Notes under the pieces: model-generated
What the model saw: only the letters and a program-made list of their open reading frames with translations
Database searches by the model: none
Told to the model about the DNA's origin: nothing
Shown here: in pieces, positions 6,521 through 18,405 of the stretch
Layout: every line of letters starts with the position of its first letter
Numbering within the stretch: the stretch's first letter is position 1
NCBI RefSeq assembly: GCF_900078335.1
Contig: NZ_FKBR01000006.1
Span: 1 to 64,000, forward strand
Length of the DNA stretch: 64,000 bases
Source of the DNA: Bordetella trematum
Lineage (GTDB): Bacteria > Pseudomonadota > Gammaproteobacteria > Burkholderiales > Burkholderiaceae_B
Reading direction: 5' to 3'
Program-made: the position numbers and the translations under genes

Positions 6521-7729
6521 TCAGGCATAGGTATTGACCAGTCCGTCGTGGTGTACGGCCTTGCGGGCGGCGGCAATGGTCTGCGGAAGGGCTTCCGGCG
6601 TGTCCGGCACGCTGCCGGAAGCCGTCGCCGTGGGCGCACCGTTGCCTTGCTGTTGCCGGGGCTGCTCCTGGCTGCCCACATCGGCCTGGCCCAGGGCGAT
6701 ACCGGCCTCGGCCAGCGCCTGCTGCAGTTGGGGCAGGGCGGATTCCACCGCCTGGCGTACGCTGGCATGGGCCGAGACGAAGCTGGCGCTTGCCACGCCG
6801 TCATGCAGGCTGAGCGTCACGCGCAGCGGCCCCAGATCGGGTGGATCCAGGCGCAGCTCGGCCGTATGCGTGCCGTGTTGTGCCGCGACGCTGAAACGGG
6901 TGACTTCGCGACCCAGTTCATTGCCCCACTGGCTCGCGCCGACCGGCAAGGCAAGCTGCATCGCTGGCGTGGCGGGGGTGGCGATGGGCGCCGACGGCGT
7001 GGCCGCGAAGAAGCCGGCCTGGCCCATCGCCGGCAGCATATCGGGGGTGTCGCGCTCACGGGGAGCTGGCGCTGCGTTGAGCGTCTCGGTCGCCGGCTGG
7101 GCGGGCGGCAAGAGCGCAGTCAGCCCGGGGCCGGGCGGCAGGGCCGCCGCCGGCAGAGATTGTTCTGAGGCCTGAGGCGGCGCCGGCTCAGGCGGCAGGC
7201 GCAGGGTCGGCCCGGTGGCGGCGGGCGTCGCCGGCATGGCGGGCGTCATGGCCAGGTCTGCAGGCGCCAACGGGGGAGCTGGCGGCGCCGGTCGGGCCGC
7301 CGTGGCCTGCGGCAGGACCGGCTGCGGCGTGGCGGCGGCTGCCGTCGTTGCCCGCATCTGCGCCTGCAGGTCGGCTGCCTGGCTGGCGATTTCCAGGGCC
7401 TGTTGCGGCAGGGCCGGTGCCAGGTCGCCCGGCGCGGGTAGGGCCACGGCCTCGACGGGCAGCGCCAGCACCGGCGTCTCCGCGGGCAGCGTCTGGGGCG
7501 TCAGGGGCGCGTCGCTGTCGTCCGTGCCCGTGTCCGCCCGGGCGGGGAGCGTGCCGGTTGCGGTCGCCGGGGTGGGCGTGCGCGGGGCGCTGCTGTCTTG
7601 CTGGCGAGCCAGCGTCTGGGCAAAGCCGTCGCGCTTGTCGCGCGCAGCGGCCGTGTTGTTGGAGGCGGCAGCATTGCCCGGCGTGGGCGCGGCGTTGGCC
7701 AGAGGGATCGGCAAGGCGGGACTGGTCAT
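6521..7729 (-). CDS. fliK: flagellar hook-length control protein FliK
   Basis: 402 aa. The N-terminal 250 or so residues are low-complexity Ala/Pro/Gln, the disordered ruler part of FliK. The C-terminal Flg_hook domain is recognisable (HTAELRLDPPDLGPLRVTLS, then VRQAVESALPQLQQALAEAG), followed by a Gln-rich tail. FliK is secreted while the hook grows and signals FlhB to switch export from hook to filament subunits. It lies 9 bp after fliJ in its usual place. A second FliK-like gene exists at 14387-15583; this copy matches the canonical domain better. Confidence 0.93.
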   Translation of the reverse strand: MTSPALPIPLANAAPTPGNAAASNNTAAARDKRDGFAQTLARQQDSSAPRTPTPATATGTLPARADTGTDDSDAPLTPQTLPAETPVLALPVEAVALPAPGDLAPALPQQALEIASQAADLQAQMRATTAAAATPQPVLPQATAARPAPPAPPLAPADLAMTPAMPATPAATGPTLRLPPEPAPPQASEQSLPAAALPPGPGLTALLPPAQPATETLNAAPAPRERDTPDMLPAMGQAGFFAATPSAPIATPATPAMQLALPVGASQWGNELGREVTRFSVAAQHGTHTAELRLDPPDLGPLRVTLSLHDGVASASFVSAHASVRQAVESALPQLQQALAEAGIALGQADVGSQEQPRQQQGNGAPTATASGSVPDTPEALPQTIAAARKAVHHDGLVNTYA

Positions 7730-13315: not shown

Positions 13316-13648
13316 ATGACGCCAGCGGGTATTTCGGGCATCGAAAACATGTTGCAGCAAATGCGTGCCGTGGTGCGCGTGGCCCAGAATCAGGCCGCCA
13401 GCCCGGCAGAGCTGGCTCCCGCCTCCGGAGGCTTTGCGGCCGAACTGCAGGGGGCGATCCGACGGGTATCGCAGACGCAGAACGCCGCGACCGCGCAAGC
13501 CAAGGCGTTCGAGCTGGGTTCGCCCGATGTCTCGCTCAACGATGTGATGATCGATCTTCAGAAGGCCAGCCTGGGGTTCCAGGCCGCCGTGCAGGTACGC
13601 AACCGCCTGGTTGCCGCCTATAAGGAAATTTCGTCGATGTCGATCTGA
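13316..13648 (+). CDS. fliE: flagellar hook-basal body protein FliE
   Basis: 110 aa from ATG 13316 ([20 protein letters not shown]), with AAGGAAGAG 7 bases upstream; the open frame extends further 5' but has no credible start there. The C-terminal part ([20 protein letters not shown], then [17 protein letters not shown]) is the diagnostic FliE domain. FliE joins the MS ring to the proximal rod and is the first axial protein exported. It is transcribed alone, divergent from fliF and convergent with the late operon (23 bp between stop codons). Confidence 0.96.
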
Positions 13649-13671: not shown

Positions 13672-14079
13672 TCAGTGCGGGGGCGCCAGGGGTGTGTCGC
13701 GCTGCAGCAGTGTCGGGAAGTCGCTCACCATGGCCACGCTATTGTCGGCAAAGTGCAGCACCAGCGGACGTCCGGCCTCGAACAGCAGCTTGCCGCCGTG
13801 GCCGGCATCAAGGACCAGATTGATCGACAGCCTGCCGCCCAGCAACTGGACGCCGCTCGAGGTAGCGCCGGTCTGAAGCAGGTCTTCGGGGCGCCAGAAC
13901 AGAATGCGCGCCTGGGCATCGGCGCCCAGCACGCGGATCGCCCATTCATGGCCCTGCCCATCGTTGGCGCGTGCTGCCTGGAAGGCGCTGGCGGCACTAT
14001 GCAGGGCGAGGTCGATTTCGTCCTGATCGCGCAGCAACTCGGTATGCATCAAGCCTTGCGGATAACGGGTGGAGGGCAT
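13672..14079 (-). CDS. hypothetical protein, last gene of the late flagellar operon
   Basis: 135 aa, family not recognised. It has no signal peptide and no transmembrane helix. The sequence reads as a small soluble alpha/beta protein: a helical start (RDQDEIDLALHSAASAFQAA) followed by strands such as WAIRVLGADAQARILFW, GGRLSINLVLDAG, GKLLFEAGRPLVLHFA and VAMVSDFPTLLQ. I see no PilZ, CheW or FliK signature. Its ATG shares one base with the stop of the FlhB-like gene (TAATG), so it is translationally coupled to it and to fliDST-fliK2. A role in flagellar export or assembly is inferred from that position only. ATG at 14049 (MHTELL) is an alternative start. Confidence 0.75.
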   Translation of the reverse strand: MPSTRYPQGLMHTELLRDQDEIDLALHSAASAFQAARANDGQGHEWAIRVLGADAQARILFWRPEDLLQTGATSSGVQLLGGRLSINLVLDAGHGGKLLFEAGRPLVLHFADNSVAMVSDFPTLLQRDTPLAPPH

Positions 14080-14390
14080 TACGGCCTCGCGGCAGAAGCG
14101 GCTGTGGACGCGGCGGCTTGCGCATCCAGTTGATAGAGCCAGGCCAGCAACTGCGCCACAGCGGTATACAGCTGCGGCGGAATGTGTGAATCCAGATCGA
14201 CCTGCATCAGCAACCCCACCAATTCCGGAGATTCATGGACATAGAGGCCGTGCTCCTGCGCGCTGCGCACAATGGCATCGGCCAGTTGGCCATAGCCTTT
14301 GGCAACCACGCGAGGCGCGGTTTCATTGGCATCGTAGCGCAAAGCGATCGCACTGGAGCGCTCGGCCGGCGTGAGATCGTCTTGGCTCAT
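14079..14390 (-). CDS. stand-alone FlhB C-terminal-domain protein (FhlB-like)
   Basis: 103 aa. From residue 15 it follows the cytoplasmic C-terminal domain of FlhB: AIALRYDANETAPRVVAKGY, then LADAIVRSAQEHG, HESPELVGLLMQVDLDSHIP and PQLYTAVAQLLAWLYQL. It lacks the membrane part and the autocleavage NPTH motif; ERSS stands at the matching place just before AIALRYD. Bacillus YlqH is a known relative, often next to a FliK-like gene, as here. FlhB-C sets export substrate specificity in interplay with FliK, so this may modulate or substitute that domain. Start overlaps the FliK-like stop by 4 bp. Confidence 0.85.
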   Translation of the reverse strand: MSQDDLTPAERSSAIALRYDANETAPRVVAKGYGQLADAIVRSAQEHGLYVHESPELVGLLMQVDLDSHIPPQLYTAVAQLLAWLYQLDAQAAASTAASAARP

Positions 14391-15583
14391 GGATCCAGGA
14401 AGGAGTAGTCGGTGGTCAGGAAGGGGCGCGGCGCCTCTGTCTGCACCGTCAGGCTGCCGACTGCCAGGCCTGCCGCGTCCAGGCTCTGGCGCAGCGCGGG
14501 GGCGTGCGCGTCCAGAAGGACCGCGCTTTGCGGTGCAATCAACTGCAGCACGACTTGCTGGCCTGCCAGGGTCAGGCGTGCCTGGACTTCACCCAGTTGC
14601 GGCAGGCGCAGCGTCAGGCGGGTCGACCAGTGGCTGTCCGGATCTTCGGGCGCCTCGCCATACGGGTCGCGGCGGACTTCCCATTCCATTTCCGCGCCCG
14701 GCCAGGGTTGGCCTTGCCACTGGATTACCTGGTTGGCGAGGATCTCCAGTTGCTGGCGCACCAGCGCATTGCTCTCGGGGTGGACCCCCGGCACCGGCGT
14801 GCCTGCTGCCGTGGGCGCGGCCTCGGGCGAGCTGGCCGCCGGCGACAGGGAGACAGCGCTGCCGCCGGGGGGCGGCAGCGTCGGCGGGTCTTTGCGCGCG
14901 GCCGCGGCAGTCGGGGTGGTCAGCGGCATGGGCGGCGGCTGTGGCAGCCTGGCCTGCGGTTCGGCGCGCAGGCTGTCCGGGGTGCGTTTGCCGAAGGCCA
15001 GGTCGCTCAGGTGGGATTCATAGAAAAGCCCGCTGTTTTCCAGGCTCTGGCGCAACGCCTGCGCAAAGTGCGGGGCGTCGGGGCGGGCCATCACCGCTGC
15101 GCCAGCCGGTTGCACGCCGGGGCCGCTTGCGGCGACCCGAGCGTTGGCGAGCTGGGTCGCGCCCGCCTGGGCAGTCGTGCCGGCGGGCGGCGTCCACAGT
15201 GGTGTGCGGCCCTGCGCAGGCGGGGCCGTCTCGGGATACTGCGCCAGCAAGGCCAGGATCACCCGCGCCGTGCCGCCCAGGGTGGTGGGCGCCGAAGCGG
15301 TGCTGTCCTGGCGTGTGACGAGCAGCCGGCTGGCCAGCAAGGCGGCGCTGCGGGCGTCCAGCGCCGGAGCCTGCCGCTCGCTGCGCAGGCCCTGTGCGTC
15401 GGCCTGGCGCGGGCCGCGGGTGGCATGCTCGCTCTGCCCGGGTCTGGCCGCCTCGCCGGGGCGGGAGACGGCGTCGGGTCGCGCGCCTGTGACCAGATTG
15501 GCATGGGCAGCCATGGTGGTGCCCAGCACGGCGTCCAGGCGCTGCACCAGGACGTTGCCCAGTGCGGGCGGGCCGACGCTCAT
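14387..15583 (-). CDS. second FliK-like protein (hook-length control domain)
   Basis: 398 aa. The N-terminal two thirds are low-complexity Ala/Pro/Gly/Gln. The C-terminal 130 residues resemble the FliK Flg_hook domain: WSTRLTLRLPQLGEVQARLT, LAGQQVVLQLIAPQSAVLLD, then APALRQSLDAAGLAVGSLTV. It is distinct from the canonical fliK at 6521-7729. Coupling to the downstream FlhB-C gene (ATGA, 14387-14390) and upstream to fliT (ATGA, 15580-15583) argues that the pair works together, perhaps as in the Bacillus ylqG-ylqH pair. Whether it is exported or measures anything is unknown. Confidence 0.85.
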   Translation of the reverse strand: MSVGPPALGNVLVQRLDAVLGTTMAAHANLVTGARPDAVSRPGEAARPGQSEHATRGPRQADAQGLRSERQAPALDARSAALLASRLLVTRQDSTASAPTTLGGTARVILALLAQYPETAPPAQGRTPLWTPPAGTTAQAGATQLANARVAASGPGVQPAGAAVMARPDAPHFAQALRQSLENSGLFYESHLSDLAFGKRTPDSLRAEPQARLPQPPPMPLTTPTAAAARKDPPTLPPPGGSAVSLSPAASSPEAAPTAAGTPVPGVHPESNALVRQQLEILANQVIQWQGQPWPGAEMEWEVRRDPYGEAPEDPDSHWSTRLTLRLPQLGEVQARLTLAGQQVVLQLIAPQSAVLLDAHAPALRQSLDAAGLAVGSLTVQTEAPRPFLTTDYSFLDP

Positions 15584-15930
15584 GCGTCGCCTGCCGTGCC
15601 GCCGTAGGTCGCCAGCAGCGTGTGCTGGCGCTTCATGCGGCCCAGCAGGTCGCTCAGGCGCGCCAGTTGCGGCATCGCCAGGTCGCGCACGGCAGCGTCA
15701 TTTTCCAGAATGCGGACCAGCAGGTCGTACTTCATGGCGCGTGACGCCTCATCCAGGGGCATGCCTGGTTCCAGTGCGCGCAAGTGTTCGACCCGCTCGA
15801 CGTACTGGTGGCCGTACAGCAGCACGCGGCCCCAGTCGCCGTCGCGGGCGGCGGCCAGCATGTCGCCGGTCGCCGTGGCGATGTCCTGGTAAATGTCGAG
15901 CACAGGGACTTGCTGCGTGAGAGCCATCAT
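15580..15930 (-). CDS. fliT: flagellar export chaperone FliT
   Basis: 116 aa, all alpha-helical, near the usual FliT size (121 aa in enterics). The pattern VLDIYQDIATATGDMLAAAR near the N-terminus and the charged C-terminal helix (ARLSDLLGRMKRQHTLLATY) fit FliT. FliT binds the cap protein FliD and in enterics also the FlhDC regulator. Sequence identity in this family is low, so the order fliD-fliS-fliT is a main support. The start may be the first or second of two adjacent ATG codons. Confidence 0.87.
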   Translation of the reverse strand: MMALTQQVPVLDIYQDIATATGDMLAAARDGDWGRVLLYGHQYVERVEHLRALEPGMPLDEASRAMKYDLLVRILENDAAVRDLAMPQLARLSDLLGRMKRQHTLLATYGGTAGDA

Positions 15931-15971: not shown

Positions 15972-16397
15972 TCAGGTGGGCGTGTCCGGAATGACCGGAT
16001 CCACAGAGGTCTGCCAGGCCGAGGAGAGCTCGAGCAGCAACTGATCGGCGAGGTCCAGCTGCGCTGTGTCGGCGTGCAGGTTGGCCTTGAGCAGGGTACG
16101 GGTAATGAAGTCGTAGAGTTCCGAGAGGTTGCGGGCGATCTCCCCGCCTGCCTCCAGATTGAGCCCTTGCTTGAGGCCTTCGTCAACGATCCGGGTTGCC
16201 TTGGCAATCGCCAGGCCGCGCTCGGGCACCCGCCCGGCTTCCATGTGCAGCCGCGCCTGCGCGATGGCGGCGCGCGCGCCCCGGTACAGCAAGGTGATGA
16301 GGCGCTCGGGGGCGGCGCTCATCACTTCGGTCTCCAGGCCGATATCCTGGTACGAACGGGCTGAATAGCCCGAGGGGCGGCGCATGGCGTAGGTCAT
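15972..16397 (-). CDS. fliS: flagellin export chaperone FliS
   Basis: 141 aa. The first helix YQDIGLETEVMSAAPERLIT matches the FliS signature (Y at the start, then a LLYRGARAAIAQARLHME helix), and the rest is the four-helix chaperone fold. FliS binds the C-terminus of flagellin and keeps it unfolded until export. It starts 12 bp after the fliD stop. Confidence 0.95.
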   Translation of the reverse strand: MTYAMRRPSGYSARSYQDIGLETEVMSAAPERLITLLYRGARAAIAQARLHMEAGRVPERGLAIAKATRIVDEGLKQGLNLEAGGEIARNLSELYDFITRTLLKANLHADTAQLDLADQLLLELSSAWQTSVDPVIPDTPT

Positions 16398-16409: not shown

Positions 16410-17786
16410 CTACTTCTTGGTGTTGTTCAGGGCGGCGAACTGCTGATTCAGATACTCGCTGGTGCCCTTCATCTGGACGACCAGGGCGTCCAGCTTGGCG
16501 AACTGCGTGCGGTAAAGGCTCATGGTTCCGGCGATCTGCTGCTCGGTGGATTTGTATTGCTTCTCCAGCGAGGCGAGCTGTTTTTCCAGCCCGGTGGTGC
16601 GACTCTTGATCGAACCCTCGGCGCCGAGGATCTTCGAGGTCGCCTCGTTCATCTTGGCAGACAGGCCATCCGGGCCCGCGAAAACGCGCGTCACATCGGT
16701 GATGTTCTCGGCGGCGACCTTGTTGAACTTCTCGCTATCGAACTTGAGCTGGCCGTTGTTCGGATCGATGCTGATGCCCAGCCCGGTCAGCGTGCGGATA
16801 TCGCCTTCCGGCGTGGCCACGCGCAATGCCGCCGCCACCGACGCCTGGATGCCGCGCACCGTGCCGTCGCCGGTCAGGGGGCTCTGGCTCTCCTTCTGCA
16901 CGTCGAAGGCGGTCAGGCCGGAAATCGTCACCTGCAAGGCGTTGTAGGCATTCACGAAAGCCTGGGTCAGCGTGTGGACTTTGGTCACGTCCATCGCGAT
17001 CTTGACTGTGGCGCCCGGGCTGTCCTCGGCCGTCACGGCGCTCAGATTCAGCGTCACCCCGTCGATGGCCTGGGTGACCGTGTTCGACTGGCTGATGACG
17101 GCCACGCCGTTGATGGTCAACTCGGCGTTCCTGGCCTTGACCTGTTCCTGCATGCCGGTGCCGCTGGCGCCGGCGGTGAAGTTCAGCTTGTCGGCCAGCT
17201 CGCTGTTGCCGCTGATCTCCAGCTTGGTGACCGCGGCTTTCTCGCCTTCGCTCTTGGCCGTCAGCATCAGGTAGAAATTGTCCTGGCCGTCATTGATGAC
17301 GGTCGCGCTCAGGCCCAGCGAACTGTCGCCATTGATGGTCTTGGCGATACCGTTGAGCGAAGTGTCCGAGCCAAGCTCCAGGGTTTTCACCTTGCCGTCG
17401 ATCGTCACGTTCAGGGTGCCGCCGGTGCCGTTGTCTGCGGTACGGCTGCTGAAGGCGCCCGAGCGCAGCGATTGCGCCATGGCCAACTGGGTCACCTTGA
17501 CCGTGTAGTTGCCGGCCGACGCCTTGTTGTCGGTCGAGGCGGTCAGGCCATCTCCGGTGACCGTCGTGCTCAGGGTGCTGGCGCTGCCCATCTTTCCCAG
17601 GTCGGCGGCGGCTTTCTGTACGGCTTCGACCGCGCCTTGAACCTTGCCGAAGGCGGAGATCCGCGTCTCCTGACTGGCCTGCTGATTGGCAATCAGTTGC
17701 AGGCGCCGGTTTTCTGCCTTCTCCAGCTTGTCGAGCGTCTCTTGCAACGGCAAGCCGGACGAGCCGAGCGACGAAATGGTGGCCAT
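16410..17786 (-). CDS. fliD: flagellar filament cap protein FliD (HAP2)
   Basis: 458 aa. The N-terminus (ATISSLGSSGLPLQETLDKL) begins at the start codon as in other FliD proteins and forms a coiled coil with the C-terminal helices (RTTGLEKQLASLEKQYKSTE, then YRTQFAKLDALVVQMKGTSE). The central part is beta-rich and Thr/Ser/Asn-rich. FliD is exported through the filament and forms the pentameric cap under which flagellin folds. GGAAGGAG lies 6 bases upstream of the ATG. The 122 bp gap to flaG shows no recognised promoter. Confidence 0.96.
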   Translation of the reverse strand: MATISSLGSSGLPLQETLDKLEKAENRRLQLIANQQASQETRISAFGKVQGAVEAVQKAAADLGKMGSASTLSTTVTGDGLTASTDNKASAGNYTVKVTQLAMAQSLRSGAFSSRTADNGTGGTLNVTIDGKVKTLELGSDTSLNGIAKTINGDSSLGLSATVINDGQDNFYLMLTAKSEGEKAAVTKLEISGNSELADKLNFTAGASGTGMQEQVKARNAELTINGVAVISQSNTVTQAIDGVTLNLSAVTAEDSPGATVKIAMDVTKVHTLTQAFVNAYNALQVTISGLTAFDVQKESQSPLTGDGTVRGIQASVAAALRVATPEGDIRTLTGLGISIDPNNGQLKFDSEKFNKVAAENITDVTRVFAGPDGLSAKMNEATSKILGAEGSIKSRTTGLEKQLASLEKQYKSTEQQIAGTMSLYRTQFAKLDALVVQMKGTSEYLNQQFAALNNTKK

Positions 17787-17908: not shown

Positions 17909-18295
17909 TCAGACGCTCGTGCTTACGGCGTTGCCTTGCATCGACACGATCATCTTGGCGATGCGGATGACGGCATCCGAAGGGATGGTGCGAAGCACCT
18001 CGCCGCTTTCCGCGTCACGGACCGACACCACGATTTTCTGCAGTTCCGGGTCCATTTCGAATTGCAGCTCGGTCGACCAGGCGCGCAACTGCTTGTTGAT
18101 TTCATCCAGGGCGGCCTCGGATGAGGCGGGCTGATCGCCGCCCGACCGGGGGTCGGGCGAGGCATTGTTGTGGCTGCCCTGGCTGCTGGCGCCGGCGGCC
18201 GCCGGAGTGGCCAGGGCGGCAGGATCGGGCGGCAGCGCCGGCGCGGCCGGCGCCGAGGCGACATGCAGGGCAGGGCTGATGGGGCTGACTTCCAT
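17909..18295 (-). CDS. flaG: flagellar protein FlaG
   Basis: 128 aa from ATG 18295 (MEVSPISPALHVAS), chosen because GGAG stands 6 bases upstream; the open frame extends 26 codons further but without a comparable site and across the leader. The N-terminal half is Ala/Pro-rich and disordered, the C-terminal 60 residues are the FlaG domain (LQFEMDPELQKIVVSVRDAE, then SGEVLRTIPSDAVIRIAKMI). FlaG influences filament length in other bacteria. It is the first gene after the sigma-28-type promoter at 18379-18405. Confidence 0.92.
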   Translation of the reverse strand: MEVSPISPALHVASAPAAPALPPDPAALATPAAAGASSQGSHNNASPDPRSGGDQPASSEAALDEINKQLRAWSTELQFEMDPELQKIVVSVRDAESGEVLRTIPSDAVIRIAKMIVSMQGNAVSTSV

Positions 18296-18378
18296 GGTCA
18301 CTCCAGCAAGCGATGACGGCATAGGGGATACGGCCTGGCGCGTGGACCGGGCGGTTCGGCTGGCTATTCTCACGCTAC

Positions 18379-18405
18379 ATAACGGCCGCGCTGCGCCAAA
18401 CTTTA
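18379..18405 (-). promoter_or_regulatory. sigma-28 (FliA) promoter of the flaG-fliDST operon
   Basis: On the minus strand TAAAGTTT (18405-18398), 11 bases, GCCGTTAT (18386-18379). The known FliA consensus is TAAAGTTT-N11-GCCGATAA, so the first box is exact and the second matches six of eight, with exact spacing. The leader to the flaG ATG would be roughly 75 nt. This marks the operon as late-class flagellar. Confidence 0.88.

Follow-up and report, generated by a model that had tools for sequence, protein, structure and literature searches.

Late flagellar operon

On the minus strand of the window (the whole 64-kb stretch of DNA analysed, from a genome of 4.44 Mb in 50 contigs), the genes flaG, fliD, fliS, fliT, fliK2, fhlX and ycgR2-N lie head to tail and probably form one operon read from a sigma-28 promoter. 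The features are as follows.

18379..18405, minus strand: sigma-28-like promoter TAAAGTTT-N11-GCCGTTAT, upstream of flaG (consensus match)
17909..18373, minus strand: flaG, first gene of the operon (Pfam FlaG 60.8 bits; frame counted from GTG)
16410..17786, minus strand: fliD, filament cap (Pfam FliD_C 175.3 bits)
15972..16397, minus strand: fliS, export chaperone (Pfam FliS 110.1 bits)
15580..15930, minus strand: fliT, export chaperone (Pfam FliT 76.3 bits)
14387..15583, minus strand: fliK2, 398 aa, the second protein of FliK type (Flg_hook 61.9 bits over residues 313-385)
14942..15076, minus strand: SGLFYESHL...EPQ motif region of FliK2, approximately residues 170-214 (pattern, profile 87.8 bits, AF2 model)
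14079..14390, minus strand: fhlX, soluble FlhB-CC-like protein, 103 aa (PF01312 positions 262-335 only)
13672..14079, minus strand: ycgR2-N, PilZ-less YcgR N-terminal (PilZN) protein, 135 aa (syntenic homologs, AF2, Foldseek)
6521..7729, minus strand: canonical fliK, 3' of fliJ (Flg_hook 84.3 bits at 6650-6892)

A previous reading made from the sequence alone had described the last three genes of the operon as a trio following fliT with overlaps of one to four bases, and the coordinates bear this out: fliT/fliK2, fliK2/fhlX and fhlX/ycgR2-N overlap by 4, 4 and 1 bases, respectively. The neighbour beyond the 135-aa gene is fliE, which is convergent and ends at 13648. The same order is found again in relatives, so the arrangement is more than a chance one.

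The promoter-like site TAAAGTTT-N11-GCCGTTAT is the sole one in the 64-kb window with three or fewer mismatches to the sigma-28 consensus, 0.03 such sites being expected from shuffled sequences; it lies just before flaG and supports the earlier remark that these genes are transcribed late by sigma-28. Sites with an 11-base spacer and up to four mismatches occur in the fetched stretches of 16 of 17 relatives, the exception being L267. Under a stricter check, which demanded the site within 700 bp before the start of the flaG match, 13 of the 17 relatives retain it, and at most 3 of 200 shuffles equalled the real sequences; L256, L265 and L268 have no site in those 700 bp, theirs being placed at or beyond the match start. 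Regarding flaG itself, its likelier start is an ATG near 18295, preceded by GGAG, and not the GTG of the longest frame at 18373, a position 6 bases away from the promoter-like site.

FliK2 and FhlX, a linked pair

FliK2 carries the Flg_hook C-domain of the FliK switch proteins (61.9 bits against a Pfam cut-off of 29.8), and a profile of this domain matches the structures of FliK-C (2rrl) and PscP (5cuk). The AF2 model has a pLDDT of 70.6 overall, of 80-91 over residues 171-220, and is good over most of the C-domain. A Foldseek search with the whole model returned nothing at E<=0.001; its best matches, both weak, were again PscP 5cuk (E=4.3e-3) and FliK-C 2rrl (E=6.7e-3), and the others, mostly metallo-beta-lactamases, were taken as noise. 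Ahead of the C-domain sits the element SGLFYESHL...EPQ. Searches for its core, written as G[LMIV]F[YF]E, find it in 117 of 120 FliK2 frames longer than 300 aa and not in the other three, nor in the canonical FliK of the window (6521-7729). With a 46-column profile built from the motif region alone, matches were obtained in 117 of the 200 genomes sampled from Burkholderiales and in 31 of 397 from Pseudomonadota, non-flagellated members having been left in both samples. Judged by its sequence, FliK2 can be described as a switch-type C-domain joined to a motif of its own. The genome of the window contains a third match to Flg_hook (L031, G000:C35:25345-25557; 41.3 bits, above the cut-off), beside lpxC; it appears by eye to be of the DciA/DUF721 type, likely a cross-family match, and was not counted as another FliK.

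FhlX matches Bac_export_2 (PF01312) with 66.2 bits (cut-off 24.4) at profile positions 262-335 of 335 only, and its 103 residues include no membrane part, which leaves the C-terminal portion of FlhB and nothing else. Both adjacent genes are thus the relatives of FliK and of the FlhB C-domain that had been proposed from the sequence, each scoring above its cut-off. Compared with crystallized FlhB C-domains, FhlX matches 3b0z (E=1.5e-12). FhlX has no NPTH cleavage motif, and in a pattern search the motif was absent from all of 140 frames from relatives. Within NCBIfam the best match is TIGR00789 (E=2.9e-24), at 85.1 bits, which is below the cut-off of 117.35. The full-length flhB is a separate gene of the same genome, outside the window (G000:C45:225943-226962, 431.1 bits). 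FhlX evidently corresponds to what would be left of FlhB after the NPTH cut, minus the membrane part.

The FlhB-C-like protein has matches in 109 of 151 sampled genomes of the family (E<=0.001); in 104 of these FhlX, the small protein, is present, with a best E of 2.8e-24 or lower, and the other five hold FlhB only. Two sets of loci were chosen by FhlX, namely 60 of the 103 family places other than the window, and the best 80 of 553 confirmed named loci; the sets have at least 7 genomes in common. A FliK2 frame lies directly upstream of FhlX in every one (60/60 and 80/80, 140/140 loci), usually after fliS-fliT. The association holds from the other side too: all 39 distinct loci that were picked with nothing but the motif profile, one of them being the window, contain FhlX, in three of them (L242-L244) beside a weak motif match, and fliS or fliT was also recognised in 31 of the 38 non-window loci, within flanks of 1.5 kb. 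In the reverse test, none of the five genomes with FlhB but without FhlX shows a motif match, and each of nine congeners that have FhlX does. Two of the five joint absences are weak, since G079 and G124 are fragmented draft assemblies. A fused FliK2-FhlX frame, sought as proof of contact, did not occur in the loci examined. By these counts fliK2 and fhlX form a tightly linked pair that exists besides the canonical fliK and flhB, and a second FliK/FlhB-C pair in the late flagellar operon does recur in other Burkholderiales, where a survey of gene order had been suggested. A lack of joint conservation had been named beforehand as counting against the trio; the first two genes are conserved together, and the 135-aa gene accompanies them in 18 of the 60 and 31 of the 80 loci only.

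The third gene, a PilZN protein

The 135-aa protein had been thought to have no recognisable family, and indeed the window protein itself matches no Pfam family at E<=1, while a phmmer search against PDB sequences gave chance-level matches only. Its relatives point elsewhere: 19 of 26 aligned homologs match PilZN at E<=1, a match that the window protein itself lacks. The AF2 model, built on 26 sequences all from its own family, has a pLDDT of 86.8, and the top four Foldseek matches are 3kyf (PP4397, E=2e-6), 5y6h, 2gjg and 5y6f, of which 5y6h, the N-domain of E. coli YcgR, gives a TM of 0.77 over the target. The frame at the syntenic position in other genera has about 250-310 aa and contains PilZN followed by PilZ, both of which score weakly in Pfam (17-28 bits for PilZN, cut-off 23; 15.8-20.8 bits for PilZ, cut-off 22.5). 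RxxxR and D/NxSxxG, the c-di-GMP motifs of PilZ, are both present in 28 of 28 distinct long forms and in none of 15 short ones. The 135-aa protein was filed as an N-terminal half and not as a YcgR because, although fold and homologs identify PilZN, the PilZ domain with these motifs is missing. On the sequence and model comparisons it is the N-terminal, PilZN part of a brake of the YcgR type, and the PilZ part, to which c-di-GMP relates, is missing in Bordetella. A match of this protein to a known, unrelated family had been named beforehand as counting against a joint role of the trio, and it is what the profile and structure searches returned.

The gene is present in one copy in its own genome, and its homologs occur in 26 of the 151 family genomes. 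Some genomes of the window's genus have third genes identical to those of B. hinzii and B. pseudohinzii, in line with a place among Bordetella. The 18 family loci that have it comprise 10 short and 8 long forms; in the named set (best 80 of 553) there are 9 short forms, all of Bordetella, and 22 long ones, 21 from Achromobacter and one from Schauerella. When the N-domains are placed on a tree, all long forms fall into a single group (87/99) and several short forms are on long branches. A single loss of PilZ in Bordetella is possible, the short forms requiring one or two changes on the tree. The short PilZN forms diverge fast and may accordingly be only weakly functional. Between ycgR2 and fliE, convergent to the long ycgR2, four loci from two genera (L080, L081, L082 and L085) have a gene read as encoding an EAL domain (c-di-GMP phosphodiesterase type); the one of the four that was run through Pfam gave EAL 243.7 bits.

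A canonical YcgR encoded apart from the operon is present in all seven genomes of the window's genus (79.9-106.5 bits). That of the window's genome is at G000:C12:172969-173619 (L033; PilZN 94.5 bits, plus PilZ), so that the genus possesses a complete brake alongside a PilZ-less copy. No PilZN was detected outside the operon in seven of seven genomes from four long-form genera, so that in Achromobacter and its allies the operon gene, ycgR2, seems to be the flagellar brake itself. In a second Bordetella-type genus (g16) none was detected outside the operon either, at E<=0.01 in 5 of 5 genomes; four of these accordingly hold the PilZ-less operon protein only and the fifth, G015, holds neither. 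The locus of this last genome (L091) is also unlike those of its congeners in that its FhlX is just 52% identical and the third gene is missing, and its flagellar cluster has possibly been replaced.

Proposed function and comparison with known systems

We propose that the late operon supplies two separate activities: FliK2 and FhlX would act on export at the filament stage, and the PilZN protein would be a half-brake at the rotor, outside the switch. To this reading as a whole we give a probability of about 0.5; confidence is high in the identities of the proteins and moderate to low in their functions. The pair would be made after completion of the hook, and FliK2 would bind FhlX, perhaps via the SGLFYESHL...EPQ motif. 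The two could then keep the export gate set, or set it anew, for substrates of the filament type; alternatively, they could replace FlhB-CC. According to PMC12713396, the C-domain of YcgR binds MotA and the N-domain has been proposed to contact FliG. The PilZN-only protein would be located at the rotor (FliG), independently of c-di-GMP, and in genomes that have a full-length YcgR the two would compete; the transcript, and not the switch, would be what the PilZN-only protein has in common with the pair.

It could be argued that FhlX is a mere backup of FlhB-CC and FliK2 a redundant FliK, so that the pair would matter only if FlhB were damaged. The likeness of FhlX to the cleaved FlhB-CC is in keeping with this, as is the term “spare part” that Wand et al. 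reportedly used in the title of their 2006 paper for HP1575 of H. pylori. Such a backup, however, would not be expected to need a FliK of its own, with a private and strongly conserved motif, that always travels with it, and the dN/dS of FhlX, 0.04-0.26 over nine pairs (values without a significance test), argues in the same direction; we regard this explanation as unlikely. Concerning the third gene, the loss of the PilZ half, the fast divergence in Bordetella seen as long branches, and the absence of the gene from one of ten Bordetella loci (L169) and from G015 might suggest a decaying, functionless remnant of ycgR2. Yet an open frame of 128-137 aa with a common end point is kept in all 15 distinct short sequences, the predicted fold is confident, and the short forms look constrained, with a dN/dS of 0.15-0.36 in four close pairs versus 0.08-0.19 for long forms (no significance test was applied). 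One further pair, from B. ansorpii, was set aside, its 174-codon alignment having run into the overlapping upstream frame. Decay is, in our view, a doubtful account of the gene. Finally, the idea that the trio is one functional unit, with the 135-aa protein as the third partner of the export switch, draws on the one-base overlap, on co-transcription and on the fact that the gene adjoins the pair in all 49 of the 140 loci where it is present, but it is improbable, given that the protein belongs to the PilZN family of YcgR, that 91 of the 140 pair loci do without it, that its homologs are confined to 6 of 43 genera of the family and that PilZN domains are known, from PMC12713396, for contacts with the motor and not with export.

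The reading in which the FliK2-FhlX pair acts on export and the PilZN protein on the rotor can be extended, tentatively and with less confidence than in the reading itself. Most flagellated Burkholderiales and some Gammaproteobacteria might run a second, filament-stage switch that is expressed together with the genes for the cap and the chaperones and in which FliK2 recognises FhlX, a mimic of cut FlhB, via SGLFYESHL; Bordetella might, in addition, have trimmed an operon-joined c-di-GMP brake to its rotor-facing half, yielding a signal-blind motor regulator that is the sole YcgR-family protein detected in the second Bordetella clade. The role of soluble FlhB-C copies is an old question, and here FhlX is accompanied by a partner in all of the loci examined; the short conserved motif offers a handle that makes the question of the FhlX partner directly testable. 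The PilZN-only proteins, for their part, constitute a natural experiment on a brake after the loss of its signal sensor.

FhlX, FliK and YcgR are already known proteins. Searches of open-licence PMC papers yielded no account of the SGLFYESHL element, the string “GLFYE” occurring there in a single unrelated paper, nor of PilZN-only proteins in this operon. FhlX shares with FhlX/FlhX proteins (HP1575, Bacillus YlqH; TIGR00789 flhB_rel) the nature of a small soluble FlhB C-terminal domain in its post-cut form, and differs from them in its location in a fliDST operon, in its dedicated FliK paralogue with a motif of its own and in its score below the TIGR00789 cut-off. PMC9321776 and PMC10746217 count FlhX among the flagellar export components, and PMC9321776 mentions an “flhX-fliK” neighbour pair for Nitratiruptor. 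FliK2 has in common with canonical FliK (2rrl; PscP 5cuk) an above-cut-off Flg_hook C-domain and profile matches to the same two structures, but it is a second copy, lies beside fliT and fhlX instead of fliJ, and contains SGLFYESHL...EPQ. The 135-aa protein has the PilZN fold of YcgR and of PP4397 FlgZ (PilZN plus PilZ), and Achromobacter and allies encode the full protein at the same place; the Bordetella form differs in its missing PilZ domain and c-di-GMP motifs and in its fliDST operon, and the PilZN of the window protein is too diverged for Pfam. In Bacillus, a FliK-like gene, ylqG, is found beside an FlhB-C-like gene, ylqH. The window pair resembles this arrangement in the two kinds of neighbour and differs from it in the operon context.
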